From positions 496,001-560,000 of the forward strand of contig NZ_CP064791.1 in NCBI RefSeq assembly GCF_017094465.1: a stretch of DNA of 64,000 nucleotides. Direction: 5' to 3'. The DNA is from Halapricum desulfuricans (lineage in GTDB: Archaea > Halobacteriota > Halobacteria > Halobacteriales > Haloarculaceae). Below are positions 5,418-43,424 of this stretch, piece by piece. Position 1 is the stretch's first letter, and each line of letters begins with the position of its first letter. The notes below the pieces were generated by a model, which did not search any database, had not been told where the DNA came from, and saw only the letters and a list, made by a program, of their open reading frames with translations. The translations under genes and the position numbers were made by a program.

Positions 5418-6425
5418 TCAATCGCCGTCAGCGGTTTGTGTGTCGCCGCTGCCGTGTGCTCCGGTCGACGACGGGGTTCGTGTCCCGTCTCTGTCGTTGA
5501 CGTCGGGACACAGCGGTTCGAACTCGTCGAACCGCGTTCGGACGGTCTCCGCGGTCACGTCGGCTGCTGTCGCGACTTCGCGCTGACTGAGCATCGTCTT
5601 CCCCCCTTCGAGCCGTGCGACGGTGTAGACGGCCCCGGCGGCGACGCCCTTCGGGTCCCGCCCGCTGTGGAGGTTCCGCTCAGTGACGACCCCCAGCAGT
5701 TGCCGGGACTGTCTGAGGAGTCGATCGTCTACTCCGAGCGTCGATTGCAGTCGCGGGAGGTACGCCACCGGTGATATCGGTCCAGCCGTGATCGCCAGTT
5801 CACGCTGGAGGAACCGCACGTCCCGTCTGACGCTGTTGTTCGGACATCGACTCACGCTCGCGACTTCCGTCAGCGTCCGAACGAATCGCGCTCTCCTCGC
5901 TCCGAGATAGACCGTCGCTCCGGCGATAGACTCGTACGCGCGTCCGTATAGCAGGTTCTCCGCGAGCGCCTGCCGGAACAGCACGCTCGCGCTCTCCCGG
6001 ACGGTCGTGGTCGCTTCGAGCGCAGCACAGACGCGTGCGATCTCGGCGAGCCCGGGCTGGAGTGTCTGTTTGTTCGCCCCGCGAGCGGCCCGTCGCTGCT
6101 GTGTCCGCTGTCGCTCCAGCTGTCGTCGTGCCCGCGGAGAGACGGGGCTTCCGCGCGCGTCTCGTCGTCGTCCGATGTACGACGAGAGGCGGCGATTCGC
6201 GTGCACCGGTGTCAGTGGCGCACCCGTGGCACGACCCCCATCGCGTGCCTGCGGCCGCGTTGGTCGCGGCCGCCGATCCGTCGGTGACGCGTCGAGGACG
6301 ACCCCGCAGTCCCGACAGACGACCTCGCACTCGCTGACGATTCGACCGCCGCATTCCGGACAGCTGCCGATCCCGCCGTCCCGCTTCGAATATGACTGTC
6401 GATACATGTGTCGTGTTCCGGCCAT
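5418..6425 (-). CDS. Divergent transcription initiation factor TFB
   Basis: A TFIIB-family factor of 335 residues, acting in recruitment of RNA polymerase to TBP-bound promoters. The N-terminus has the zinc ribbon CPECGGRIVSECEVVCRDCG near residue 23. A basic Arg-rich linker follows (residues ~50-130). Then come two cyclin-like repeats: GLAEIARVCAALEATTTVRESASVLF, and LGVDDRLLRQSRQLLGVVTERN with KGVAAGAVYTVARL. The C-terminal ~35 residues are a polar tail. Haloarchaea carry several TFBs; this one is divergent from the canonical factor. The start is MAGTRHMYRQ at 6425; MYRQ at 6407 is also possible. It is divergently placed relative to the halorhodopsin gene. Confidence 0.87.
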   Translation of the reverse strand: MAGTRHMYRQSYSKRDGGIGSCPECGGRIVSECEVVCRDCGVVLDASPTDRRPRPTRPQARDGGRATGAPLTPVHANRRLSSYIGRRRDARGSPVSPRARRQLERQRTQQRRAARGANKQTLQPGLAEIARVCAALEATTTVRESASVLFRQALAENLLYGRAYESIAGATVYLGARRARFVRTLTEVASVSRCPNNSVRRDVRFLQRELAITAGPISPVAYLPRLQSTLGVDDRLLRQSRQLLGVVTERNLHSGRDPKGVAAGAVYTVARLEGGKTMLSQREVATAADVTAETVRTRFDEFEPLCPDVNDRDGTRTPSSTGAHGSGDTQTADGD

Positions 6426-6460
6426 CGCGACCAGCCACAGTGACGGAGTGTCTACCCCAG

Positions 6461-6476
6461 TGTCCCACCCGGGACA
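6461..6476. repeat. Short inverted repeat between TFB and halorhodopsin genes
   Basis: TGTCCC and GGGACA form a perfect 6-bp palindrome with a 4-base centre in the TFB/halorhodopsin divergent interval (6426-6639). It could be an operator, but nothing else supports this. Confidence 0.3.
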
Positions 6477-6560
6477 GTGTCGTGTAGCCGCTCGTTTGAC
6501 GACCGTTCGTCCGATGGTAGTGTGTAAGAATCGGTTAAATTTTCCGGATCATGTCCCAAA

Positions 6561-6658
6561 CCCATTTCGGGAGAGCGGTTCCCCCAATCCATTTGGTACG
6601 TCTGATATCCACGATCCTGTCGTACTCCTGTATGGAACAATGTCACAGCCCATTTCGG
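6561..6658. promoter_or_regulatory. Halorhodopsin upstream region with repeated CCATTTsGG motif
   Basis: The motif CCCATTTCGG occurs at 6561-6570, as CCATTTGG at 6589-6596, and again at 6649-6658 just inside the coding start. An A/T-rich element (GGTTAAATTTTCC) lies at 6534-6546. The spacing brackets the likely transcription start of the opsin gene, so a regulator site is possible. No known haloarchaeal opsin activator motif was matched with confidence. Confidence 0.3.
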
Positions 6659-7503
6659 CCACTGTCTTGGCGGCGAGTCAGCAGGACCTGTTCAAACACG
6701 TGCTAAACGACCCGCTCCTCGGGAGTTCGATCTACATCAATATTGCACTCGCGGGGCTAACGCTGCTGTTGTTCGCGTATATGGCACGGGACCTCGTCGA
6801 CCCGCGTGCCAAATTGATCGTCGTCTCGGTGATGGGCGTCTCGGCCGTCTCGATCGCCAGCTATACCGGGCTCGCTTCGGGCCTGACGATCGGCGTCTTG
6901 CAGATGCCCGAGGGACATGCCATGTACGAGGCGACGACGGAACTGGCCCACAGCGGCGAGACCGTCGACGGAACAGTCAGCCTCTGGGGTCGGTATCTGA
7001 CGTGGGCGTTCTCGACGCCGCTACTCTTGCTCGCGCTCGGCCTCATCGCGGGATCGAACCTCACGAAGATCTTCACAGCGATCGCCTTCGACGTCGGGAT
7101 CATGATCACTGGCCTCGCCGCCGCGCTGACCACGTCGTCGTACCCCATGCGATGGGCCTGGTACGGCATCAGCGTCGCGTTCTTCCTCGTGGTGGTCTAC
7201 ATTCTGCTGTTCGAGTGGCCAGCGGACGCCAGAGAGGCGGGGACCGAGGAGATATTCAACACGCTGAAGCTCCTGACGGTCGTGCTGTGGTTCGGGTACA
7301 CGATCTGGTGGGCGCTCGGCAACGAGGGGCTGGCGATCATCGAATCGGTCGGGATCACCTCCTGGGGCTACAGCGCTTTCGACATCGTCGCGAAGTACCT
7401 CTTCTCGTTCCTGGTGGTGAAGTACGTCGTCGACAACGTCGAGAAAGTCAGCGGCGGCGACGACTACGGTGCCACGATCTCCGGTCAGCCCGCTGACGAC
7501 TGA
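6640..7503 (+). CDS. hop: Halorhodopsin, light-driven inward chloride pump
   Basis: A seven-helix retinal protein of 287 residues. In helix C the signature RYLTWAFSTPLLLLALG gives Arg118, Thr121, Ser125 and Ala132 at the positions of bacteriorhodopsin Arg82, Asp85, Thr89 and Asp96. This T-S-A pattern is the chloride-pump signature. Helix G has the Schiff-base lysine Lys252 in FDIVAKYLF, with Asp248 as the conserved carboxylate. The ATG at 6640 (MSQPISATVL) was chosen; the open frame extends further upstream without similarity. Retinal would come from the crtY and blh genes about 6-8 kb away. A divergent TFB gene lies upstream. Confidence 0.95.
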   Translation: MSQPISATVLAASQQDLFKHVLNDPLLGSSIYINIALAGLTLLLFAYMARDLVDPRAKLIVVSVMGVSAVSIASYTGLASGLTIGVLQMPEGHAMYEATTELAHSGETVDGTVSLWGRYLTWAFSTPLLLLALGLIAGSNLTKIFTAIAFDVGIMITGLAAALTTSSYPMRWAWYGISVAFFLVVVYILLFEWPADAREAGTEEIFNTLKLLTVVLWFGYTIWWALGNEGLAIIESVGITSWGYSAFDIVAKYLFSFLVVKYVVDNVEKVSGGDDYGATISGQPADD

Positions 7504-13631: not shown

Positions 13632-14669
13632 TCACACGACTCTCTGTACTCGATCGAGCACCGTCACGACACCGGCGTGTGGCAGCGTCAACACGGCGAG
13701 CAACACCAGGTAGACGCCGCCGACGCCAGCGAGCGACCCCGGTTCGTTCGGGACGACGACTGCGATGGCACCGAACAACGCGAGCGCGCCGACGGTCATC
13801 GGGAGCGCGCCTGTGCCAACCCGTGCGAGCAGTCGGCCGGTCGCTCCCTCGGTCAGTGCCGTCGACGCTGTCTCGTCGATCGCGACCAGTCGTGCGAGAT
13901 GTCGCAGCGAGTGCCAGACTGCGAAGTAGACGCCGATCGCCAGTATCGGCGGGACTGTCGCGAAAAACGCCCACAGCAACCCCGTCTCGACGGCGTCGAT
14001 CCGCCACCCGCGCCGATCGCCAGCGACGTAGTGACCGGCCAGTAGCGTCCCGACGGTCGCCAGTCCGAAGCCGACACCGACCGCGATCCGGGTCGAGGGA
14101 TCGAAGGCCGGTGCGAGCCAGTGCCCTCCGCCAGGATCGAACAGCCCCACGACGGTCGTCGTCACCGAGCGATACTGCTCGGGGAACGCCAGCAGTGGCA
14201 CCACCATCGGCAGTCCGCCACGGACGAGCAGCGTCAGGCGACTGACCCACGGATCCTCCAGATGGGCTGCGTCGGTCGCCAGCGCGAGATGCGCCCGATC
14301 GCCCTGCCCCCAGTGGAACCAGGTCAGCAGGACGAACCCGGCGAACGACGCCGCCGGTGCCACCAGCCATGCGATCCCGTATGCACCCGCGACGGCGAGG
14401 TACGCGACCGAGAAGATGCCGATCCCGCGGAGCGTCACCGGTTCGTCGCGCGCCCGCGGGAGCGTGAGGTGATCGAGCGCGCCGTGGGGTAGTCCCAGCA
14501 GCAGGACGGTTCCCAGTAACAACCCGTACTGGGCCGTCGTCGGCAGACGAACGCCGAGCAGGTGGACGGACCCGACCGCAGCGAGGACGATCCAGACCGG
14601 CCGGAACGTCCCCGCGGCTACCCGATCGCGAACGGGGCTGGCGAGTGCGCCGTCGGTCACGCTCGCCAT
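13632..14669 (-). CDS. blh: Brp/Blh-type beta-carotene 15,15'-dioxygenase (retinal synthesis)
   Basis: An integral membrane oxygenase that cleaves beta-carotene to retinal. The 345-residue product starts MASVTDGALASPVRDR. It has about nine hydrophobic segments and the conserved His-containing blocks LLGLPHGALDHLTLP, LLTWFHWGQGD, YFAVWHSLRH and VLTLPHAGVV, which fit the four His iron ligands of the Brp/Blh family. Its ATG lies 13 bases inside the end of crtY. It is the last gene of bop-crtY-blh, so opsin and chromophore supply are co-expressed. Length is typical. Confidence 0.92.
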   Translation of the reverse strand: MASVTDGALASPVRDRVAAGTFRPVWIVLAAVGSVHLLGVRLPTTAQYGLLLGTVLLLGLPHGALDHLTLPRARDEPVTLRGIGIFSVAYLAVAGAYGIAWLVAPAASFAGFVLLTWFHWGQGDRAHLALATDAAHLEDPWVSRLTLLVRGGLPMVVPLLAFPEQYRSVTTTVVGLFDPGGGHWLAPAFDPSTRIAVGVGFGLATVGTLLAGHYVAGDRRGWRIDAVETGLLWAFFATVPPILAIGVYFAVWHSLRHLARLVAIDETASTALTEGATGRLLARVGTGALPMTVGALALFGAIAVVVPNEPGSLAGVGGVYLVLLAVLTLPHAGVVTVLDRVQRVV

Positions 14670-15391
14670 CGGTCGATCACCCACGGGTACAGCACGAGCC
14701 CCTGGACGACGAACAGGGTCGTCACGAGGAAGAACAGCCCTTCCTCGATCGGGAGCCCGCCGATCGTCAGCCCGGTCGTGTACTCCCCGGCGATCGTCCA
14801 GATCCCGTACTCGATCGCGATCCGGTCGGCCACAGCGAAGTACAACGCCGGGGCGGCAACCCCGACGACGAGGAGTCGCCAGCGCGCCAGCAACTGCCGC
14901 CAGCCGACTGCCCACTGCAGGGCGAGCACGGGTGCAGCCCACGAGAGGATCGCACCCATGTAGAACGTCGCCGCGTGGGTCAACATCGCGACGCCGAGCG
15001 CGCCGACCGACAGCGCGGCGACGACCCCGCCGATCCGGTCGCGGACGGTCATCGCTACCGTCCCACGCGGTTCTCGGAACGCCTTCGAGATCAACCCGAG
15101 CCACAGCGCCGTGACGATCGGCTGCAACAGGACGAACAGGTACTCTTCGAGGGGTGCCAGCCAGATCCGTCCAGCGACAGTCCCGTCTCCGTACCACCAG
15201 ACGCCGCGGTGGATCAGGTAGTTGTCCCAGGGCGTGGTGTATGCGAGCGCCAGCACGAGGATCGCGACGGTCGGGATCGCGCGCACGACCGACCGCGTTT
15301 CATCGCGAGTGCTCGCGGTCACCGACGCCAGAACGAGCAGCGGTGGGGCGACGAACACAGCGTGGAAACCGACGTACGTGAGGTCTGCCAT
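14657..15391 (-). CDS. crtY: Lycopene beta-cyclase, CrtYcd fusion type
   Basis: A membrane protein of 244 residues that cyclises lycopene to beta-carotene, the Blh substrate. It is the archaeal fused form of the two small CrtYc/CrtYd-type units. Each half carries the signature near a helix start: APLEEYLFVLLQ around residue 80 and LPIEEGLFFLVTT around 215 (PxEE motifs). About seven hydrophobic helices are visible. It lies between bop and blh on the same strand, overlapping blh by 13 bases. Confidence 0.92.
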   Translation of the reverse strand: MADLTYVGFHAVFVAPPLLVLASVTASTRDETRSVVRAIPTVAILVLALAYTTPWDNYLIHRGVWWYGDGTVAGRIWLAPLEEYLFVLLQPIVTALWLGLISKAFREPRGTVAMTVRDRIGGVVAALSVGALGVAMLTHAATFYMGAILSWAAPVLALQWAVGWRQLLARWRLLVVGVAAPALYFAVADRIAIEYGIWTIAGEYTTGLTIGGLPIEEGLFFLVTTLFVVQGLVLYPWVIDRWRA

Positions 15392-15442: not shown

Positions 15443-16264
15443 TTATGCAGTCGACGCCGTCGACGTGCCAGCGTCGTCGAGGACGCTGTGACTGGCCAGC
15501 AGGACGATGCCGAACCCGACCTTCGCGGTCAGGTCGAGCACCATGAATCCGGCCGTCTCGATCGGTAGTCCGACGACAGCGAGCCCTTCGGTCCCGATCA
15601 GCCACCAGACCGGGTAGACGAACCACAGGCCGACGATCATGTACCGGAGGGTGTTGAACGTGCTTTTCGTGTCACCCGACAGCTGGGCTGCTTTCGATGA
15701 GAGGCCCTGGAACAGGTAGAAGATCAGCACCAGGAAGAAGCCGGTGCTGACGCCCCACCAGACCAGGCGGTGTGCCTCGGTGCTGAGGCCGAGCGAGTCG
15801 ATCGGCGCGATCGTCAGCGTCGCGACCAGGCCAGTCAGGATCATCATAACGTCCAGTCCGACCAGCGTCGCGATGGTATTGCGGTCAGCGCCAGCGAGCA
15901 ACGCCAGATCGTACAGCAACAGCGGCGTCGTCAGGACCCAGTCGGTGTATCGGGGCCAGTAAATTTTCAGCTCTTCGACGCCGTCGATGAACGGTGCGAG
16001 GTCGATTACGCCGAACCCTGTCGCCATCGCGAGATAGTTCACGAACGCGATCGCGGCGATGAACGTTGTCACGATGTAGAACTTCTGGCGGCGCGAATCC
16101 GTCACGCCCCAGCCTCGGGCGATGAAATACAGCATCCCGAGGAACATGCCTGCCGTACCGAGCCACAACCATATCGCCTCGTCGCCCGGTGTTGCACTCA
16201 GGTCGCCTAGTTGCAATACAGCTGTACCGATCGTTGCCAGCGGTTGGCTGCTCAGCAGTGCCAT
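15443..16264 (-). CDS. bop: Bacteriorhodopsin, light-driven outward proton pump
   Basis: A seven-helix retinal protein of 273 residues. Helix C reads [19 protein letters not shown]: Arg105, Asp108 (proton acceptor), Thr112 and Asp119 (proton donor), the D-T-D pump signature. Helix G has [13 protein letters not shown] with Asp244 and the Schiff-base Lys248. The glutamates of the release group are present in GTEGLAV and PIETAGF. The N-terminus carries a short extension before helix A. It is the first gene of bop-crtY-blh and lies 242 bases downstream of atpB on the same strand. An outward proton pump here can drive the ATP synthase encoded next door. Confidence 0.96.
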
Positions 16265-16506: not shown

Positions 16507-17916
16507 TCAGTCCGCAGTGACTTCTTCCTCGACTGTCTCCCGGTAGTGCTCGTCGATGAGGTCCTCGTCGATGCGGTTGAGTTCCTCTTTCGGGAGCATG
16601 CTGAGCAGATCCCAGCCGATGTCCAGGGTACCGCCGATATCGCGATCCGTCGTAAAGCCCTGCTGTACGAACTCCGCCTCGAAGCGGTCGGCGAAGTCCA
16701 GATACTTGTTGTCGCGTTCCGAGAGGGCTTCGCGACCGACGATGTTCACGAGGTCGCGCAGGTCCTCACCCTCCGCGTACGCAGCGTAGAGCTGGTCGGA
16801 GACGTCGGCGTGGTCACCGCGGGTCAGCCCCTCGCCGATCCCGTCGTCCATCAGCCGCGAGAGGCTGGGCAGGACGTTGATCGGCGGCTGGATACCCTGA
16901 CTGTTGAGGTCCGGGTCGATGATGATCTGCCCCTCGGTGATGTAGCCGGTCAGGTCCGGGATCGGGTGGGTGATGTCATCGGAAGGCATCGTCAGGATCG
17001 GGATCTGGGTGATCGATCCCTCCACGCCCTTGATCCGCCCGGCCCGCTCGTACAGCTGGGCCAGGTCGGTGTACATGTACCCGGGGTACCCACGGCGACC
17101 CGGGACCTCCTCGCGGGCGGCTCCGATCTCGCGCAGCGCCTCACAGTAGTTGGTCATGTCCGTCAGGATCGTCAGGACGTGATACCCCTTCTCGAAGGCC
17201 AGGTACTCGGCGGTCGTCAGCGCCAGCCGCGGAGTCAGCGTCCGCTCGGTCGCGGGGTCGTCGGCGAGGTTCATGAAGACGACGCTGCGTTCGAGCGCGC
17301 CCGTGCGCTCGAAGTCGTCCATGAACTCGTTTGCCTCTTCGGCGGTGATCCCCATCGCGCCGAAGATGACTGCGAACTCCGACTCGCCGCCCTCTTTCTC
17401 CTCTTCGGGGACGCTCGCCTGGCGTGCGATCTGCAGCGCCAGGTCGTTGTGGGGCTGGCCCGAACTGGAGAAGATCGGGAGCTTCTGACCGCGGACGAGC
17501 GTGTTCATACCGTCGATGGCCGAGACGCCCGTCTGGATGAACTCCGCGGGGTACTCCCGGGAGTAGGGGTTGATCGCCTCGCCGACGATGTCCTCGCGTT
17601 TGTCCGGTTCGATCTCGGGCCCGCCGTCGATTGGCTGGCCCGAGCCGTCTAGGACGCGACCGAGCAGGTCCTCGGTCAACTTCATCTTCATCGTCTCGCC
17701 GAGGAACCGCACCGATGCGTTTCGATCAATACCGCCAGTCCCTTCGAAGACCTGGATCGCGACGTGATCGCTCGTCGATTCGAGCACCTGCCCACGGCGG
17801 GTTTCGCCGTCCGGCGTCTCGATCTCGACGATTTCGTTGTACCCGACGGGTTCGTCGACCTCGGCGAACACCAGCGGTCCGCTGATCTCCGTGATCGTCT
17901 TGTATTCTTTCTGCAT
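16507..17916 (-). CDS. atpB: A-type ATP synthase subunit B (regulatory)
   Basis: The non-catalytic nucleotide-binding subunit of the A1 head. The 469-residue product starts [20 protein letters not shown]. It lacks the catalytic P-loop seen in subunit A: the corresponding segment reads [20 protein letters not shown]. Conserved blocks [14 protein letters not shown] and [14 protein letters not shown] are intact. It is the last gene of the visible atp operon, with atpA ending three bases upstream. A subunit D gene, which usually follows, is not present; the next gene on this strand is bop. Confidence 0.96.
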
Positions 17917-17918
17917 GG

Positions 17919-19672
<1,754 letters not shown>

Positions 19673-19676
<4 letters not shown>

Positions 19677-20008
19677 AGTTGCTGTTCGTCTTCCTCCATC
19701 AGGTCGATACCGATCGCTCGTTTGATCTGTTCGCGCAAGTTCCCGCTCTCGGTCCCGCCGCCGAGCGTCACCAGCACGGGGTCGACGCTCTGCTGTACCG
19801 TCTCGCGGACGCCCCGGGAGAGGTACTGCAGGTCGTCGTCGTGCATCACGAGAATGCCGATGTCGTCGCTCGTGAGCAACTCCTTGACAGTCTCGTCAAG
19901 TTCCGCTTCCATCTCGTCGTCGGGGATGTTGATCGCCCTTCGGACGCCTGCCAGGCGAAACCCGGTCGTGAAGTCCGGCGTTCCGACCACGGCGATTTCC
20001 TTACTCAT
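19673..20008 (-). CDS. atpF: A-type ATP synthase subunit F
   Basis: A central-stalk subunit of 111 residues. It begins [22 protein letters not shown], typical of the small Rossmann-like F subunit, and contains [20 protein letters not shown]. It overlaps both neighbours by four bases (ATGA), showing tight translational coupling in the atp operon. Confidence 0.94.
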
Positions 20009-21081
20009 AGCGTGACCAGCTCCGTTTCGATCTCCTCGGGCGAGAGGTCGGCCTCCCGGCCGCGTGCGATTGCACGGATGTTGTCCACCTCTCGCTCTTT
20101 GGCGAGGATGTACGACAGGACCGAACACACCGACGGCGGGTACCGGTTCGCGAGTCGGTCGGCGAACGCCAGCAACGCGGCGTCGAGCACGTTCTCGAAG
20201 CGAACGATGTCGTCGCTCTCCTCGAGTTCGGTCAGTGCCACGGCGAGGTCGTCACCGTAGATACTCTCCCGGACGTGCTCGACGAGTTGATCGCGATTGC
20301 CGACCAGCTGGCGCAGTTCCTCGGCGTCGAAGAGCCGTCCGCCGTCGATGAAGTACGCGGCGGGGTCCATGTCCGCACCGCTGCGAGCCAGCCGCAGGGC
20401 GTTGCGGACGTTGCTGAAGTCGATCTCCGCGGTGATGAACTCGATGTACAGTTGCGTCGCCCTGTCGGCCTGCACGCGGGACGGCAACCCTTCGTCGATA
20501 TCCTCGAAAAAGACCCGATCGACCGCGTTTTCCAGCGGCACGAGCAGGTCCGTCTCCTCGTAATCGTCGTACGCCTCACGTAGGGCATCCGCGAAGATCG
20601 TCTGATCGAGTGCTTCGACCGCACTCTCGATCGACTCGGCTCTTGCCAGCTGCTCCAGCAGGGCGTCGTCGAACTCGCCCGCCCGGATATAGTCGGATTC
20701 GATGGCTTCGGTACCGGCCTCGGAGTAGATCCCTCGCAGCGCCGTCTTGACGTTCCAGGCGTCGAACTTCCGGAGGTACCGGGCGATGTAGTCGTACGCC
20801 TCTCCGGTCGCCCACCGCAAGAGATCGTTGAAGTGCTTCGCGAGGTTGCGATTGAGCGCGTACTCGATGAGATTGACCCCGGAAAAGCGAGCGCCGAGCG
20901 CGTTCATCTCTCGGCCGTACTCGGTTTCCTCCATGAACCGGGCGATTTCGCCGGTCCCCATCCGGACGAGTTTCCGGTAGTCGTCCTCGTCGAACAGCGA
21001 CGCACGCCGGGCGCTGACCCGGGCGGTCACGTATTCGTAGTTGCTCGCTTCTTCGGCCGAACTGCCGTACTGTGCGCTCAT
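20005..21081 (-). CDS. atpC: A-type ATP synthase subunit C
   Basis: Subunit C links the central stalk to the membrane ring. The product is 358 residues, all-helical and acidic, with NYEYVTARVSARRASLFDED near the N-terminus and repeated V-type d-subunit-like helices (IEYALNRNLAKHFNDLLRW). Length matches the family. Coupled by four-base overlaps to atpE and atpF. Confidence 0.94.
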   Translation of the reverse strand: MSAQYGSSAEEASNYEYVTARVSARRASLFDEDDYRKLVRMGTGEIARFMEETEYGREMNALGARFSGVNLIEYALNRNLAKHFNDLLRWATGEAYDYIARYLRKFDAWNVKTALRGIYSEAGTEAIESDYIRAGEFDDALLEQLARAESIESAVEALDQTIFADALREAYDDYEETDLLVPLENAVDRVFFEDIDEGLPSRVQADRATQLYIEFITAEIDFSNVRNALRLARSGADMDPAAYFIDGGRLFDAEELRQLVGNRDQLVEHVRESIYGDDLAVALTELEESDDIVRFENVLDAALLAFADRLANRYPPSVCSVLSYILAKEREVDNIRAIARGREADLSPEEIETELVTL

Positions 21082-21662
21082 TGCTCCTCGAACAGTTCGT
21101 CACTGATTTCGCGAAGCGATTCCTGCCAGACGTCCTCGAGGACCGAATCGAACGTGTTGTTGACCCGGACCCGGGACGAGTCGCTCTCGACGACTACGCC
21201 GCCGAGGCAGTCGATTTCCCCGCCGTACTCGAAGCCGTCGTACTCCTCGAGGATCGACGTCAGCAACTCCTCGTCGTCGCTGCGGCCGTACACCTCGGCC
21301 GCCTCGACGTCCTCGAACTCCGTGCTCGCCGCATCGAGCAACTCGCGGGTCAACTCCTCTCGCGTCTCCGCGTCGAGGTCGACGAGTGCGGTTTCGACCT
21401 GCTCGCGAACCCGCTCGAGAAGCTGACGACGGGCCGCCAGCCGCGTCTGCTTGGCCTCGAGGTTCCCACTCGAGAGGCGCTGCTCGCGCTCTTGTTCGAT
21501 CTGTCGCTCGACCTCGCGCTCTTTCTGTTGGCGGATCCGCTCGGCTTCCTGCTCTGCCTCCTGGATGATCTCGTCGGCCTGCTCCTCGGCGTCGGAGCGT
21601 ATTTCCTCCGCACGTGCGCGAGCCTGCTCTTTGATGTCTTCTGTTACGCTGTCGAGACTCAT
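21078..21662 (-). CDS. atpE: A-type ATP synthase subunit E
   Basis: Peripheral-stalk subunit of 194 residues. The first ~100 residues are a long charged coiled coil (DIKEQARARAEEIRSDAEEQ onward). The C-terminal globular domain has EEYDGFEYGGEIDCLGGVVV. It pairs with subunit H in the stator stalk. It lies 16 bases after atpK. Confidence 0.94.
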   Translation of the reverse strand: MSLDSVTEDIKEQARARAEEIRSDAEEQADEIIQEAEQEAERIRQQKEREVERQIEQEREQRLSSGNLEAKQTRLAARRQLLERVREQVETALVDLDAETREELTRELLDAASTEFEDVEAAEVYGRSDDEELLTSILEEYDGFEYGGEIDCLGGVVVESDSSRVRVNNTFDSVLEDVWQESLREISDELFEEQ

Positions 21663-21678
21663 GAATGGTCAGACTGTG

Positions 21679-21957
21679 TTACAGCGTGAGGAACACGACG
21701 ACCAGCGCGAGAATGACGAGCGTTTCCGGGATGACCGTGAGGATCAGCCCACGACCGAACATGTCGTCGTCCTCGGCGACTGCGCCCACGGCTGCGGCAC
21801 CGATCCCACGCTCCGCGTATCCTGCACCGAACGCGGCCAGCCCGACCGCGAGGGCAGCCATCCCGAGCGAGAAGTGGTTCTCGGGAATCGCCGGCGCTGC
21901 GGCAGTTGCGTTCTCCTGCAGTACAACAAACAGTGGTGCGAGTAGTTCTGGAATCAT
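21679..21957 (-). CDS. atpK: A-type ATP synthase subunit K (membrane ring proteolipid)
   Basis: A 92-residue proteolipid of the rotor ring. After an N-terminal hydrophobic segment there is a Gly/Ala-rich helical hairpin (FSLGMAALAVGLAAFGAGYA and GRGLILTVIPETLVILALVV). The ion-carrying carboxylate is the Glu in IPETLVI, in helix 2. It is a single-hairpin ring subunit, as expected for a haloarchaeal proton-driven enzyme. Between it and atpI (21958-22120) nothing else is seen. Confidence 0.93.
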   Translation of the reverse strand: MIPELLAPLFVVLQENATAAAPAIPENHFSLGMAALAVGLAAFGAGYAERGIGAAAVGAVAEDDDMFGRGLILTVIPETLVILALVVVFLTL

Positions 21958-22120
21958 AAGTATGCCTGTCGCGATTCTCGTGTTTCCGGACGGTTGCTAG
22001 TCGCAACAGCGACCCTATAAAACTTCCCAAAAGCGTTCGATCTGTCCGGTTTCTTTCGATATCGTGCCGTCCCAAGACCGCAAGATTGCGGCGGGGTTCC
22101 GGGAACTCAGTTTCAGGCGA

Positions 22121-24379
22121 CTACTCCTCGACTGTGTAGTTTCGCTCGTATCCGAACGGGTTGTAGACCGTCCCGCCGCCGTCGTAGAACTTCCCGAAGA
22201 ACTCGACGTATTCGAGACGCACTGCCTGTAGCCCCGCGCTGGAGATCCCCAGCACGAGCACCAGCAGGTGGCCGAGCAGGAGGACGACGATCCCGGCCAA
22301 TCCACCGAGGATCAACTCGGCCGGCCCGGTGCCGTTGACCAGGCCGCCGAAGACGACTTCGCCGTGCGCTTCAGGATCGAAGAACAGGAAGTGGAACTCC
22401 CCTTCCTCGGTCAGCGTCGCACCGAACACGAGCAGGTTTACCGCTAGGGCCATGCCGGCTTTCGCCAGCACGACCGCGGCCAGTCGGGTGTAGGAGACGA
22501 CGTGGCCGAACGTCTGGGTAATGCTCTCGATAATTACGATTCCGCCTTCGGCCTTGAATCCGAGGGCGAGCCCGACGCCCAGCAGCGCGAGCCCGACGGT
22601 GCCGACGATCGGCGGGAAGCCGGTGAATCCGAGCTCAATCGCGGTCATGTTTGACTCGACGGTGACCGTCTCCGGGAGGAAGGTCAGCGTCGTCCCTTCC
22701 TCTGCGAAGACGTAGAACATGAAGTCCGGTTTCGGTGCGGGCACTTGTTTGCTGAACACCCACAGCCAGAGCCCGACAGTCATCATGATCCAGGAGCCGC
22801 TCTCGACGAACGCCTCCGTGACACCGTGGTGTAGCTTGTTGACGAAGTCGAACAGTCGGCCCACGACGAGATGGAGGACGCCGATGACGATACTCAACAG
22901 CAGCCACGCCTGCGCGTAGGCGATATAGTACGGCTGCAGGCCCTTGTGGATCGGCGGATGGCCGTTCCAGACGAACTCGCCGAGCCAGTGGAGGCCGAAT
23001 ATCTCACCGTACAGGACGCCGAACAGCGCGGTGAAGCCGCCGGCCCACAGCGCGATACCACCGAGACTCGCCAGCACGTCGCTGTCGACGTTTTTCATGA
23101 GCCAGTAGCCCATCCCCATATAGAGGAGCCCGTACCCGAGATCCCCGATCATGAACCCGAAGAAGGCCGGGAACGTCAGGAACAGGACGATCGTCGGATC
23201 GAGTTCCGTGTATTTGGGCCGATTGATCACTTCGACCAGTGCCTCGAACGGCTTGACGCCGCCTGGATTGTCCTGGACTGTCGGCGGCTTGTCCTCGGAC
23301 AGGGGGACGTATCCACCGTCGGCGGCAGTCTCCTCGCTGTCCTGTGTGCGTTCTCTCGCGACCGGGCCGTCCGTCCGGTCCGGCTCGCGGTCGGTCACTG
23401 TGGATCCGCCGGAGCCGCCCTCGACCGACTCGGTCTCTTCGGGATGTCCGTCTTCGTCGTACGTCGCCTGTTCGAGTTCCTCGATCTCGACCTTGCCGTC
23501 CGCGGCCGTCTCGACGGCTTCTTTGAGCGTGTCGATCTCTTCGGTCGGGACCCATCCCTCGGCGACGAACGCGTTGTCGCTCGTCGCGAAGGACAGCGGT
23601 GCTTCGCGCTTCTGGACGGCGATGGTCAGCTTCTCCTCGGCGGCCAGCAGGAACCCGCTGACTTCCAGTCGCAGGTCGTCGAGTTCGTCTTCGACGGTGT
23701 CGAGCTTCGACTTGAGCTGCTGTTTGCGATGCCGACGGTCCTTGAGATACTCGGCCGGGTCCCCAGTACCGTCCGGGATCGCAACCTCGCTGAACGTCGC
23801 GCTGACGAGCGCGTCTTCGAGCACGCCCGGATCGTCGACGTATGCGAACACAGCGATCGCTTCACCCTCCGAAGCCACGTCGAAGGTCTCTATCTCGCTC
23901 GCGTCGAGCTCCGCCGTCACGTCGGCCGGGTCGCCCTCGCCGACGGCGACTTCGAGACTATCGTAGCCGCCGAGCAGATCGAGGTCGATCCCCAACTGGA
24001 CGAACAGCTCCAGTTGTTCGATGTCTTCCTCGACCGATCGCAACTCGCTCCGGAGCTCCTCTCGTCGATCGTCGAGAGCGTTGACCTCCTGGCGAACATC
24101 CTCGAGTTCGTCGTCGAGGTCCTCGTCGGTGACGACGTGCGTCGGCCCCTCGTAGCCGTTCTCGATTCCGAGAGTACTTTTCAGCGCCCGGACGGTCACG
24201 AGCTTCTCGGAGTACTCGTCGGCGCCCTCGAGCGGATTGCCGGGTTCGAATCCCTCGATCTCGTTGGTGTAGTCGCTGAGGTGCACCAGATCGAGGCCGT
24301 GGACGACTTCGATCACGTCGTTCATCACGCGCTTCGAGCCGGTCATCGAGACCCGACTCATCCGCTCAGGCCTGAGCAT
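22121..24379 (-). CDS. atpI: A-type ATP synthase subunit I (membrane stator, a-subunit)
   Basis: The proton-channel stator, 752 residues. The N-terminal half is cytosolic with long coiled coils. It contains an acidic haloarchaeal insert near residues 310-380 (DRTDGPVARERTQDSEETAA region). The C-terminal half has about eight membrane helices, including ALWAGGFTALFGVLYGEIFG and the segment with the essential Arg, GHVVSYTRLAAVVLAKAG. I chose MLRPERMSRVS at 24379, which overlaps the end of atpH and matches the family's usual opening; MSRVS at 24361 is the alternative. Confidence 0.94.
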   Translation of the reverse strand: MLRPERMSRVSMTGSKRVMNDVIEVVHGLDLVHLSDYTNEIEGFEPGNPLEGADEYSEKLVTVRALKSTLGIENGYEGPTHVVTDEDLDDELEDVRQEVNALDDRREELRSELRSVEEDIEQLELFVQLGIDLDLLGGYDSLEVAVGEGDPADVTAELDASEIETFDVASEGEAIAVFAYVDDPGVLEDALVSATFSEVAIPDGTGDPAEYLKDRRHRKQQLKSKLDTVEDELDDLRLEVSGFLLAAEEKLTIAVQKREAPLSFATSDNAFVAEGWVPTEEIDTLKEAVETAADGKVEIEELEQATYDEDGHPEETESVEGGSGGSTVTDREPDRTDGPVARERTQDSEETAADGGYVPLSEDKPPTVQDNPGGVKPFEALVEVINRPKYTELDPTIVLFLTFPAFFGFMIGDLGYGLLYMGMGYWLMKNVDSDVLASLGGIALWAGGFTALFGVLYGEIFGLHWLGEFVWNGHPPIHKGLQPYYIAYAQAWLLLSIVIGVLHLVVGRLFDFVNKLHHGVTEAFVESGSWIMMTVGLWLWVFSKQVPAPKPDFMFYVFAEEGTTLTFLPETVTVESNMTAIELGFTGFPPIVGTVGLALLGVGLALGFKAEGGIVIIESITQTFGHVVSYTRLAAVVLAKAGMALAVNLLVFGATLTEEGEFHFLFFDPEAHGEVVFGGLVNGTGPAELILGGLAGIVVLLLGHLLVLVLGISSAGLQAVRLEYVEFFGKFYDGGGTVYNPFGYERNYTVEE

Positions 24380-39903: not shown

Positions 39904-39933
39904 GTTTAAGGAGATATTTGCCGAATCCGGTGT
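39904..39933 (+). promoter_or_regulatory. Promoter of the ubiD-acnX-ubiX operon
   Basis: A TATA-like element (GTTTAAGGAGATAT) lies at 39904-39917, about 20-30 bases before the ATG at 39934. This is the normal distance for a leaderless haloarchaeal transcript. ADH synthase diverges from the same 98-base gap. Confidence 0.55.
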
Positions 39934-41238
39934 ATGGGCCTCAGACGCTTTCTCGACGATGTCGGCGACCGGGTCACCCTCACGGAACCGGCCGAGACGC
40001 GGTTCGAACTCCCGGCGCTGGCCGTCCAGGACGAGCGCCGGCCGATCGTCTTCGAATCGGTCGCGGACTATCCCGACGTGCGCGCGGTATCGAATCTGAT
40101 CTCCTCGCGGGCGTTGATCGGCGAGGCGCTCGGCGTCAAACCCGCCGAGATCATCGACGCCGTCAGTACCGCGATGGACGATCCGCTGTCCCTGGAGCGG
40201 ACTGAACCCGCGGCCTTCGAGCACGTCGCGGACGACCCCGACGTCGCCGAGCACGTCCCGATCCCGATCTACTACGACGAACACGAGCGACAGTACTTCG
40301 CCTCGACGATCGTCGTCACGAAAGATCCCGAGACGGGCGTGCACAACCTCTCCTTTCACCGGATGATGTACGATTCGGGCAACCGGCTGGTGATGCGGCT
40401 GGTCGAACGCCACCTCCACGACATATACACGCGCACCGACGGCGGGCTCGATGTCGCGATCGTGATGGGCGTTCACCCCGCGGTCGAGATCGCCGCCGCG
40501 ACCTCGTTCTCGCCGGATATGAGCGAACTCGAGCTCGCCAACCGCCTGCTCGGCGGAGAGTTGGCGACCACGGAGTTCCACGGGCTGACCGTCCCCAGCG
40601 AGGCCGAACTCGTCATGCAGGCGACGATCACCGACGAGCGCGCGGAGGAAGGTCCCTTCGTCGACCTCTCCCGGACCTGGGACCGGACCCGACAACAGCC
40701 CGTCGTCGAAGTGAACGAACTCCACGCCCGACCCGATCCCCTGGCGCGAATGATCGTTCCCGGCCGGAAGGAACACGCCCACCTCATGGGTATTCCCCAG
40801 GAACCGCGGATCTACCGGATCGTCGAGAACACCGTCCCCACCGTCGAAAACGTCGTGTTGACGCCGGGCGGCTGTTCGTGGCTGCACGGCGTCGTCCAGA
40901 TCGACAAGCGGACCGAGGGCGATCCCAAGAACGCCGGGATGGCCGCGCTGGCGGCCCACCCCTCGATGAAGAAAGTCACTGTCGTCGATAGGGATATCGA
41001 TCCCGCCGACCCCGACGCCGTCGAGTGGGCGACCGCAACGCGGATGCAGCCCGATCGCGACGTCGAGACCATCGAGAACGCCAAGGGGTCGTCGCTGGAC
41101 CCCTCGCAGGATTACGAGACGGGGACGCTGACGAAGTGGATCGTCGACGCGACGGTCCCCGGCGATCGCGAACGCTCGGAGTTCGCCGAAGTGACTGTCC
41201 CCGGCGCGGACGAACTCGACCTTTCGGAGTATCAGTGA
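39934..41238 (+). CDS. UbiD-family prenyl-FMN decarboxylase, likely anhydromevalonate phosphate decarboxylase
   Basis: A 434-residue UbiD-fold protein. Landmarks are FESVADYPDVRAVSNLISSR near residue 35, YFASTIVVTKDPETGVHNLS near 120, IVMGVHPAVEIAAAT near 170, GEFHG-like TTEFHGLTVPSEAELVMQA near 220, and EEGPFVDLSRTWD. The run of acidic/basic residues fits the Glu-Arg-Glu catalytic set of UbiD. About 430 residues is close to the archaeal enzymes that decarboxylate trans-anhydromevalonate 5-phosphate. It is the first gene of an operon with both aconitase-X subunits and ubiX, which is what points to the mevalonate role. A quinone-related decarboxylase is the alternative. Confidence 0.82.
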   Translation: MGLRRFLDDVGDRVTLTEPAETRFELPALAVQDERRPIVFESVADYPDVRAVSNLISSRALIGEALGVKPAEIIDAVSTAMDDPLSLERTEPAAFEHVADDPDVAEHVPIPIYYDEHERQYFASTIVVTKDPETGVHNLSFHRMMYDSGNRLVMRLVERHLHDIYTRTDGGLDVAIVMGVHPAVEIAAATSFSPDMSELELANRLLGGELATTEFHGLTVPSEAELVMQATITDERAEEGPFVDLSRTWDRTRQQPVVEVNELHARPDPLARMIVPGRKEHAHLMGIPQEPRIYRIVENTVPTVENVVLTPGGCSWLHGVVQIDKRTEGDPKNAGMAALAAHPSMKKVTVVDRDIDPADPDAVEWATATRMQPDRDVETIENAKGSSLDPSQDYETGTLTKWIVDATVPGDRERSEFAEVTVPGADELDLSEYQ

Positions 41239-41260
41239 GCCACCACAGCCACTACCACCT

Positions 41261-42439
41261 ATGCACCTGACAAAAGAAGAGGAACGACTGCTCGAATCGG
41301 ACAGCCCGGCCGTGCGCAAGGCGATGGAACTGCTGGTCGAACTCGGCGACATCTACGGGGCCGAGGAGATGGTCGAGATCGAATCCGCCCAGGCCTCGGG
41401 CATCTCCTACAAGTCGATCGGCGACCCCGGCGTGGAGTTTCTGGAAGGGTTCGCCGAGGAGGGCGCGGAAGTGTCGGTGACGACCTTCGCGAACCCCGCC
41501 GGGATGGACTTCGCGACCTACGAGGAGATGGGTGTCAGCGAAGAGTTCGCCGAACAGCAACGCCGGATCAGAGACGCTCTCCAGGAAATGGGAATCACCC
41601 TCTCTTTCACCTGTACGCCTTATCTGGCGGGGAATCTGCCACGCCGCGGCCAGCACATCGCGTGGGCGGAATCGTCGGCCGTCTCGTTTGCCAACAGCGT
41701 CATCGGCGCGAAGACCAACCGCGAGGGCGGCCCCTCAGCGCTGTCAGCGGCGATCACTGGCCGGACACCCAAACACGGCCTGCATCTGGACGAGAACCGC
41801 CGGCCGACCCACCGTATCGACGTGGATGTCGACCTGGAGACGCAGTCGGACTTCGCGGCGCTCGGCTCGTGGACCGGCCGGATCGTCGAGGACGGCAAGC
41901 CCTATTTCACCGGGATCGACGCGGCGACCACCGACGAACTGAAGGCGCTCGGCGCGGCGATGGCCGCCTCGGGAGCCGTCGCGCTACACTTCGTCGAGGG
42001 GGTCACGACAGACAGGGAACCGCCCGAAGCCGTCGAGAGTGCCACCTTTGGCACGGGCGAGCGCGATGAGGAGTACGCCGAGTTGAACGACGGCGAGGAC
42101 CCCGAGTTGGTCGTCATCGGCTGTCCCCACTGCTCGCCCGAGGAGATCGAGGACGTCGCGGCGACCGTTGAGGGCGAGACCCTCGAAAGCGACCTGTGGG
42201 TCTGTACCAGCGGCGCGGTCAAAACCTGGGCCGACCGCAACGGCCACACCGAGACCATCGAGGCGGCGGGCGGGCAAGTACTGGCCGACACCTGCAACGT
42301 CGTCTCCCCGATCGAGGAGATGGGCTATGAGACCAGCGCGACTGACTCGGCGAAGGCTGCCAACTACCTGCCCGGATTCGGCGACCAGCAGGTAGTCTTC
42401 GACGACAAACTCGCCCTCCTGGAGGAGGTGATGGAGTGA
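41261..42439 (+). CDS. Aconitase X catalytic (large) subunit, likely phosphomevalonate dehydratase
   Basis: A 392-residue AcnX (DUF521) protein. It begins MHLTKEEERLLESDSPAVRK. Cysteines in the expected cluster-binding positions are in SFTCTPYLAGNLPRRGQH near residue 113, VIGCPHCSPEEI near 288 and VLADTCNVVSPIEE near 340. In Aeropyrum this subunit plus the small one dehydrates mevalonate 5-phosphate with an iron-sulfur cluster. Its TGA overlaps the ATG of the small subunit. AcnX homologues in bacteria dehydrate cis-3-hydroxyproline, but the UbiD/UbiX neighbours favour the mevalonate role. Confidence 0.88.
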   Translation: MHLTKEEERLLESDSPAVRKAMELLVELGDIYGAEEMVEIESAQASGISYKSIGDPGVEFLEGFAEEGAEVSVTTFANPAGMDFATYEEMGVSEEFAEQQRRIRDALQEMGITLSFTCTPYLAGNLPRRGQHIAWAESSAVSFANSVIGAKTNREGGPSALSAAITGRTPKHGLHLDENRRPTHRIDVDVDLETQSDFAALGSWTGRIVEDGKPYFTGIDAATTDELKALGAAMAASGAVALHFVEGVTTDREPPEAVESATFGTGERDEEYAELNDGEDPELVVIGCPHCSPEEIEDVAATVEGETLESDLWVCTSGAVKTWADRNGHTETIEAAGGQVLADTCNVVSPIEEMGYETSATDSAKAANYLPGFGDQQVVFDDKLALLEEVME

Positions 42440-42855
42440 TGAGTGAATCGGAAGAGACGGCTGACGTTATCGACGCCGAATCCATCACCGACGGCGTCGG
42501 CGAGGGCGAGGTGCTGCGATCGGACGAGCCGATCAGCTTCTACGGTGCGGTCGAGCCAGACACTGGCAAGTTCATCGAGGAGGGCCACCAGCTCGAAGGC
42601 GAGAACGTCGCCGGCAAAGTGCTAGTTTTCCCGCGCGGGAAGGGCTCGACTGTCGGATCGTACGTCCTCTACGGGCTGGCCCAGAACGGCGTCGCACCCG
42701 CGGCGATCGTCAACGAGGAGACCGAAACCATCGTCGCGACGGGCGCGATCCTCGGGGAGATTCCCAGCGTGGATTCGCTTGCGGCACCGCTCGACACGCT
42801 GGCGAACGGCGAGGTCGTGACGGTCGACGCCGACGCGGGCGTGGTGAGACGGTGA
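42439..42855 (+). CDS. Aconitase X swivelling (small) subunit, DUF126
   Basis: A 138-residue DUF126 protein, the swivel domain of AcnX. The conserved serine motif is FPRGKGSTVGSYVLYGLAQN near residue 72, followed by GVAPAAIVNEETETIVATGA. ATG at 42439 overlaps the large-subunit stop; the GTG three bases earlier is not needed. Its own TGA overlaps the GTG of ubiX. Together with the large subunit it forms the putative phosphomevalonate dehydratase. Confidence 0.9.
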   Translation: MSESEETADVIDAESITDGVGEGEVLRSDEPISFYGAVEPDTGKFIEEGHQLEGENVAGKVLVFPRGKGSTVGSYVLYGLAQNGVAPAAIVNEETETIVATGAILGEIPSVDSLAAPLDTLANGEVVTVDADAGVVRR

Positions 42856-43424
42856 CCGTCGATCGCGTCGTCGTCGGGATTACCGGCGCGTCGGGGATCC
42901 CCATCGCGGTGGCGACCGTCGAGGCGCTCGCCGAGCACTGCGAGGTCATCACGGTCGTGACTGACGCGGCCAGGTCGGTGATGGCCCACGAACGCGGTGA
43001 TCGCGAGGCGACGATGAAACACCTTGAGGAGTTATCGGCGGCTGTCTACGGCGAGGACGCCGTCCACGCGCCGATCGCCTCGGGGTCGGTCGAGACCGAC
43101 GGGATGGTGATCGTCCCCGCGTCGATGAACACCGTTGCCGCGGTCGCGACCGGCCGCTCGGACACCTTAGTCTCGCGGGCCGCGGACGTGACGCTCAAGG
43201 AACGCCGGAAACTCGTGGTCGTCCCGCGGGAGACGCCGCTCAGCGAGTTGCATCTGGAAAACCTGCTGAAGCTCGCCCGGATGGACGTCGAGGTCGTCCC
43301 GCCGGTGCTGGGGTTTTACTTTGATCCCGAGGATCCGGGAGACTTCGTCGATCACGTCGTCGGGAAGATCCTCGAACGGTTCGATCTCGATCACGACCGG
43401 TACGACGCCTGGGAACCGGACTGA
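42852..43424 (+). CDS. ubiX: UbiX flavin prenyltransferase
   Basis: A 190-residue flavoprotein that makes prenylated FMN, the cofactor of UbiD. It starts at GTG (42852) overlapping the previous TGA. It has GITGASGIPIAVATVEAL at residue 8, the Ser/Thr-rich phosphate contacts in APIASGSVETDGMVIVPASMNTVAAVATG, the block LKERRKLVVVPRETPLSELH and the closing DFVDHVVGKILERFDL. Co-transcription with ubiD and acnX supplies the decarboxylase cofactor. Confidence 0.95.
   Translation: MTVDRVVVGITGASGIPIAVATVEALAEHCEVITVVTDAARSVMAHERGDREATMKHLEELSAAVYGEDAVHAPIASGSVETDGMVIVPASMNTVAAVATGRSDTLVSRAADVTLKERRKLVVVPRETPLSELHLENLLKLARMDVEVVPPVLGFYFDPEDPGDFVDHVVGKILERFDLDHDRYDAWEPD

Follow-up and report, generated by a model that had tools for sequence, protein, structure and literature searches.

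A predicted archaea-type dehydratase/decarboxylase operon of the mevalonate pathway alongside phosphomevalonate decarboxylase in Halapricum desulfuricans and other haloarchaea

The window analysed here is the whole stretch of 64,000 nt from position 496,001 to 560,000 of contig NZ_CP064791.1 (GCF_017094465.1) of Halapricum desulfuricans, whose genome (2.88 Mb, two contigs) is 99.6% complete. It carries an operon predicted to encode the dehydratase/decarboxylase branch of the mevalonate pathway. Its four open reading frames, all on the + strand, are given with their window coordinates. UbiD (39934-41238): predicted trans-anhydromevalonate-phosphate decarboxylase (AMPD). AcnX large subunit (41261-42439; 392 aa): aconitase X protein, predicted phosphomevalonate dehydratase of type IIb, matching PF04412 with 481.9 bits. 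AcnX small (swivel) subunit (42436-42855; 139 aa, GTG start): PF01989, 112.9 bits. UbiX (42852-43424; 190 aa, GTG start): flavin prenyltransferase, TIGR00421, 184 bits against a cut-off of 108.9. The N, Rift and C domains were found in the UbiD protein (Pfam). UbiX matches Flavoprotein PF02441 (136.1 bits), exceeds the cut-offs of both NF004685 and TIGR00421 (NCBIfam) and has UbiX relatives in the PDB. UbiD and the AcnX large gene are separated by 22 bp, and the AcnX large/small and AcnX small/UbiX genes overlap by 4 bp each, which is the layout expected for a co-translated operon. The same gene order is conserved in 17 other haloarchaeal carriers and on contigs of halophilic DPANN archaea; the arrangement is therefore not due to chance. 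An earlier note on this DNA had described four coupled genes for UbiD, both AcnX subunits and UbiX, as is found here. Its wording of a complete archaeal mevalonate-branch operon holds for the dehydratase/decarboxylase branch, but mevalonate kinase and isopentenyl phosphate kinase (IPK) are encoded elsewhere.

The two AcnX subunits are encoded by separate neighbouring genes, which fits the subunit organisation of type IIb. The closest solved relatives of both are the subunits of Thermococcus kodakarensis AcnX (7CNR/7CNS; 338 bits with 7cnr chain A for the large subunit, 119 bits with chain B for the small one); hydroxyproline dehydratases reach at most 199 bits. The [4Fe-4S] cluster ligands of the large subunit are all retained: C118, C288 and C345, corresponding to C110/C283/C342 in T. 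kodakarensis and Cys122/297/356 in Aeropyrum pernix. There is no Cys at site C, and the sequence around C345, DTCNVV, has no second Cys. The substrate contacts described for the T. kodakarensis enzyme are Gly48, Val49, Ser50, Asn53, Asn79, Glu129, Ser130, Ser131, Lys361 and Tyr365 of the large subunit and Ser62 and Thr63 of the small one (PMC8184944); three of the cluster- and substrate-binding residues proved necessary in A. pernix (PMC10040528). N78, E137, S138, S139, K365 and Y369 of the large subunit correspond to N79, E129, S130, S131, K361 and Y365 and are retained, as is the phosphate loop G-[VI]-S, where Val49, a backbone contact, is replaced by Ile. The small subunit retains the PRGKGSTVGSY motif, including the substrate-contacting Ser-Thr; its SFYGAV differs from the T. 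kodakarensis SFLGGV. The only side-chain change among the contacts affects the phosphate contact Asn53, which is replaced by Ser. This Ser is common to the relatives from DPANN and Thermoplasmatota; methanogens have Thr. In the AcnX tree, the haloarchaeal sequences form a group (100/100) inside the archaeal clade of type IIb dehydratases. Tree and active site together are strong evidence that this AcnX is of the archaeal phosphomevalonate-dehydratase type, as the earlier note had proposed, and it would be expected to turn over mevalonate 5-phosphate in this organism.

UbiD passes TIGR00148 (309 bits, cut-off 244.85). In the UbiD tree, it lies within the AcnX-linked AMPD clade (100/98), apart from 12 other haloarchaeal UbiDs, and its UbiX partner is encoded in the same operon. 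Its predicted assignment to the AMPD type, and thus to the route named in the earlier note, is well supported. The groupings that the note had named as speaking against its reading, AcnX with hydroxyproline dehydratases or UbiD with quinone or aromatic decarboxylases, were not observed. UbiD enzymes have a broad substrate range, and the only named NCBIfam match of the AcnX large subunit is cis-3-hydroxyproline dehydratase (NF051439); the AcnX pair and UbiD could thus act on something else, for example hydroxyproline or an aromatic acid. This is most improbable. The NF051439 match scores 246.8 bits, far under the cut-off of 700; the Cys pair of type I is absent and the type IIb residues are present. 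The superfamily and fold are shared with cis-3-hydroxyproline dehydratase, but the cluster ligands differ and no hydroxyproline context was seen. The placement of UbiD in the AcnX-linked clade speaks against an aromatic-acid enzyme, and the block is found next to mevalonate genes in relatives.

Two independent ties to isopentenyl phosphate formation come from such neighbours. In halophilic DPANN archaea (genomes of 0.5-0.7 Mb), IPK adjoins the block or lies near it on four contigs (L082-L085) and mevalonate kinase lies upstream of it on two (L082 and L083); phosphomevalonate decarboxylase (PMD) was not found in these genomes. In two haloarchaeal genera (g17 and g53), PMD is the next gene 3' of UbiX (NF040704, 571.6 bits in L171), so that both routes are encoded in one cluster. 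A gene encoding an HD-domain protein is inserted between UbiD and AcnX in the halophilic DPANN (L082:5421-6014, L083:5424-6014) and is absent from the haloarchaeal operon.

The earlier note had left open whether the lower mevalonate pathway was replaced or duplicated in this lineage. A search of the host genome settled the question as duplication, since PMD, mevalonate kinase and IPK were all found intact. PMD, of the HVO_1412 type, is full length (L002:1444-2433; NF040704, 570.6 bits, cut-off 475). IPK (NF040647, 184 bits, cut-off 120) and mevalonate kinase (TIGR00549, 275 bits, cut-off 163) are adjacent to each other on L003, away from the operon. At the level of predicted genes, it is established that the lower pathway is doubled. 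Within the genus, dN/dS is about 0.10 for PMD and 0.08-0.26 across the four operon genes; both routes thus look maintained by selection, and decay of the operon is ruled out. That the PMD of carriers has lost or changed its function, AcnX/UbiD having effectively replaced it, is very improbable given these values, the full-length, high-scoring PMD of the host and its few departures: only 12 among 181 positions that never vary in seven non-carriers, a count inside the range of the other carriers. What favours such a loss is found in two other genomes (G001 and G007; contigs L183 and L184), where a second, diverged PMD-like gene with about 60 departures at otherwise invariant positions lies beside the operon-linked canonical PMD. 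Taken jointly, the predicted enzyme identities, the pathway assignment and the doubling are held with high confidence.

The resulting gene set combines features of two known pathways. Like the archaea-type pathway of A. pernix, the route of most other archaea, it comprises the same four proteins with the same cluster cysteines and substrate residues, and in close relatives the block is flanked by mevalonate kinase and IPK. Unlike in A. pernix, it is found in Halobacteria, alongside PMD, as four genes in one overlapping operon. Like the haloarchaea-type pathway of Haloferax volcanii (PMD HVO_1412 and IPK), it includes PMD, IPK and mevalonate kinase, all above cut-offs; unlike there, PMD would not be the sole route to isopentenyl phosphate, and in g17 and g53 it is clustered with the AcnX operon.

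Halobacteria are said to use PMD and to be an exception to the archaeal pathway (PMC10040528, PMC9254496, PMC11052028). In reviews and evolutionary models, the two pathways figure as alternatives and PMD as the replacement of the AcnX/UbiD pair in haloarchaea (PMC9254496). A PMD-type TIGR01240 match was found in 391/391 Halobacteria genomes. The AcnX/UbiD/UbiX operon was found in 18 of these, belonging to 6 genera and 3 families, with an AMPD-type UbiD adjacent in each. The statement that haloarchaea usually lack the AcnX route, made in the earlier note, therefore holds as a rule that at least six genera break. Named carriers include Halalkaliarchaeum desulfuricum AArc-Sl (G359), Halorhabdus salina, Halorhabdus amylolytica and Halapricum hydrolyticum, whose AcnX shares 93% identity with the one in the window; a metagenome-assembled genome of Halodesulfurarchaeum likewise has the operon genes. 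A candidate nineteenth carrier (G271) was rejected: its AcnX pair (L174:5762-7494) is of another subtype, with diverged substrate residues and without UbiD or UbiX. No report of both routes together in haloarchaea was found in the literature searches, and haloarchaeal AcnX may already be remarked on in supplements or in the original A. pernix paper. The papers on anaerobic haloarchaea that were searched do not mention the pathway in their main text.

The few carrier genera are mostly ones suited to life without oxygen. Anaerobic traits were compared in 70 genomes from 55 genera: 18 carriers and 52 non-carriers. The [NiFe]-hydrogenase-family large subunit (PF00374) was found in 17/18 carriers and 5/52 non-carriers (Fisher test: 5e-11 by genome and 1.6e-5 by genus, with 6/6 against 5/49). 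Since the genomes counted are related to one another, these p-values overstate independence. When only matches above 180 bits are considered, the counts are 11/18 and 5/52; the weak matches (about 60 bits) probably represent group 4 membrane-bound complexes or ones that resemble sulfur reductases. Anaerobic ribonucleotide reductase NrdD is encoded by 6/18 carriers and by none of the 52 non-carriers. Carriers have fewer haem-copper oxidases or none: COX1 is present in a mean of 1.5 copies in carriers and 3.5 in non-carriers, and of the four genomes that lack it three are carriers. G165, which is alone in its genus in not having the operon, likewise lacks the hydrogenase. Pyruvate-formate lyase, found in 0/70 genomes, is uninformative as an anaerobic marker. 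A rationale for a link to anaerobic life is provided by the oxygen sensitivity of the AcnX cluster and the lower ATP cost of the AcnX/UbiD route (PMC10040528, PMC11052028).

The proposed scheme is as follows. The large and small AcnX subunits, with their [4Fe-4S] cluster, would convert mevalonate 5-phosphate to trans-anhydromevalonate 5-phosphate, which UbiD, with prenylated flavin mononucleotide from UbiX, would convert to isopentenyl phosphate. IPK would then form isopentenyl diphosphate. In the same cell, the ATP-consuming PMD would make isopentenyl phosphate directly, so that both branches would share mevalonate kinase upstream and IPK downstream. AcnX/UbiD would be the energy-saving branch for oxygen-poor, sulfur/hydrogen-based or fermentative life; PMD would be the oxygen-tolerant branch. 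The most probable reading is that the two routes operate side by side and that AcnX/UbiD saves ATP under low oxygen. A specialisation of the two branches according to oxygen and energy is given an even chance. The full reading, a two-branch redox/energy switch in anaerobic haloarchaea that feeds one isopentenyl phosphate pool and, in some genera, has the genes of both branches in a single cluster, is proposed tentatively (probability about 0.45).

Besides the relatedness of the genomes counted and the replacement of Asn53, several observations weigh against the proposed scheme. The hydrogenase is present in the five non-carriers mentioned above. The operon was not found in the sampled genomes of a lineage that includes Natronolimnobius, described in the literature as sulfur-respiring. 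The genomes without COX1, presumably those of strict anaerobes, retain PMD, so that a simple oxygen switch does not account for the doubling. In the COX1-free carriers PMD is even retained in the same cluster, as would be expected if the second route were a redundant backup: an ancestral AcnX/UbiD branch kept by some lineages, both routes being constitutive. The operon genes also mostly track haloarchaeal families: in the concatenated operon tree, family f2 groups together and a clade of family f1 is not rejected (p-AU 0.12). Such a backup without specialisation is nevertheless rather unlikely, given the strong enrichment with hydrogenase and NrdD, the fewer oxidases and the same-genus contrast of G165.

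The origin of the block is a separate matter; a lateral gain would be compatible with the proposed scheme. Haloarchaeal AcnX is sister to that of halophilic DPANN (100/100), then to Thermoplasmatota, not to Methanosarcinales/Methanocellales, and the UbiD tree likewise gives DPANN as sister. These placements and the scattered presence among genera suggest that, in anoxic brines, haloarchaea may have gained the block from halophilic DPANN or Thermoplasmatota, or exchanged it with them, instead of inheriting it from a methanogen-like ancestor. This possibility is tentative, since the haloarchaeal sequences form one clade with family-like structure and the DPANN lineages could equally be recipients from haloarchaea. 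An early gain, or retention, with many subsequent losses would fit, as would exchange among archaea of anoxic brines. Outside archaea, type IIb AcnX and UbiD nested in archaeal clades were found on contigs of Anaerolineae (Chloroflexota; L102, L104, L126 and L133), which contrasts with the description of the pathway as restricted to archaea; a contig of Brocadiia (Planctomycetota; L095) also has AcnX.

Flanking features of the operon are as follows. A TATA-like TTTAA (39905-39909, + strand), identified by comparison of upstream regions, lies 29 nt 5' of the UbiD ATG, in a block (GTCACGAACGTTTAAGGAGATATTT.CCGAATCC) conserved in three congeners; this element is likely the promoter of a leaderless operon transcript. 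The region upstream of the operon does not contain the palindrome CGAAC-N4..6-GTTCG, a candidate motif for an anaerobic regulator. On the upstream side there is a divergent gene encoding 2-amino-3,7-dideoxy-D-threo-hept-6-ulosonate synthase; on the downstream side there are a convergent gene of the lipase/esterase family and aIF-2. Elsewhere in the window (6007-7503, 13632-15197, 15443-16264, 16507-24379), genes for two rhodopsins and for the retinal-forming beta-carotene 15,15'-dioxygenase lie near A-type ATP synthase genes. The isoprenoid demand seen here by the earlier note is thus found for retinal; the 30 window frames tested include no gene for carotenoid synthesis. This rhodopsin-bearing host genome has a single COX1 along with hydrogenase genes.

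Descriptions of the class Halobacteria as lacking the archaeal pathway need correcting. With organisms that combine both routes with anaerobic traits, the cause of the replacement, be it oxygen, energy or iron, can be tested directly. If the two-branch reading is true, these haloarchaea would represent a still-living intermediate stage in the proposed replacement of the dehydratase/decarboxylase pair by PMD.

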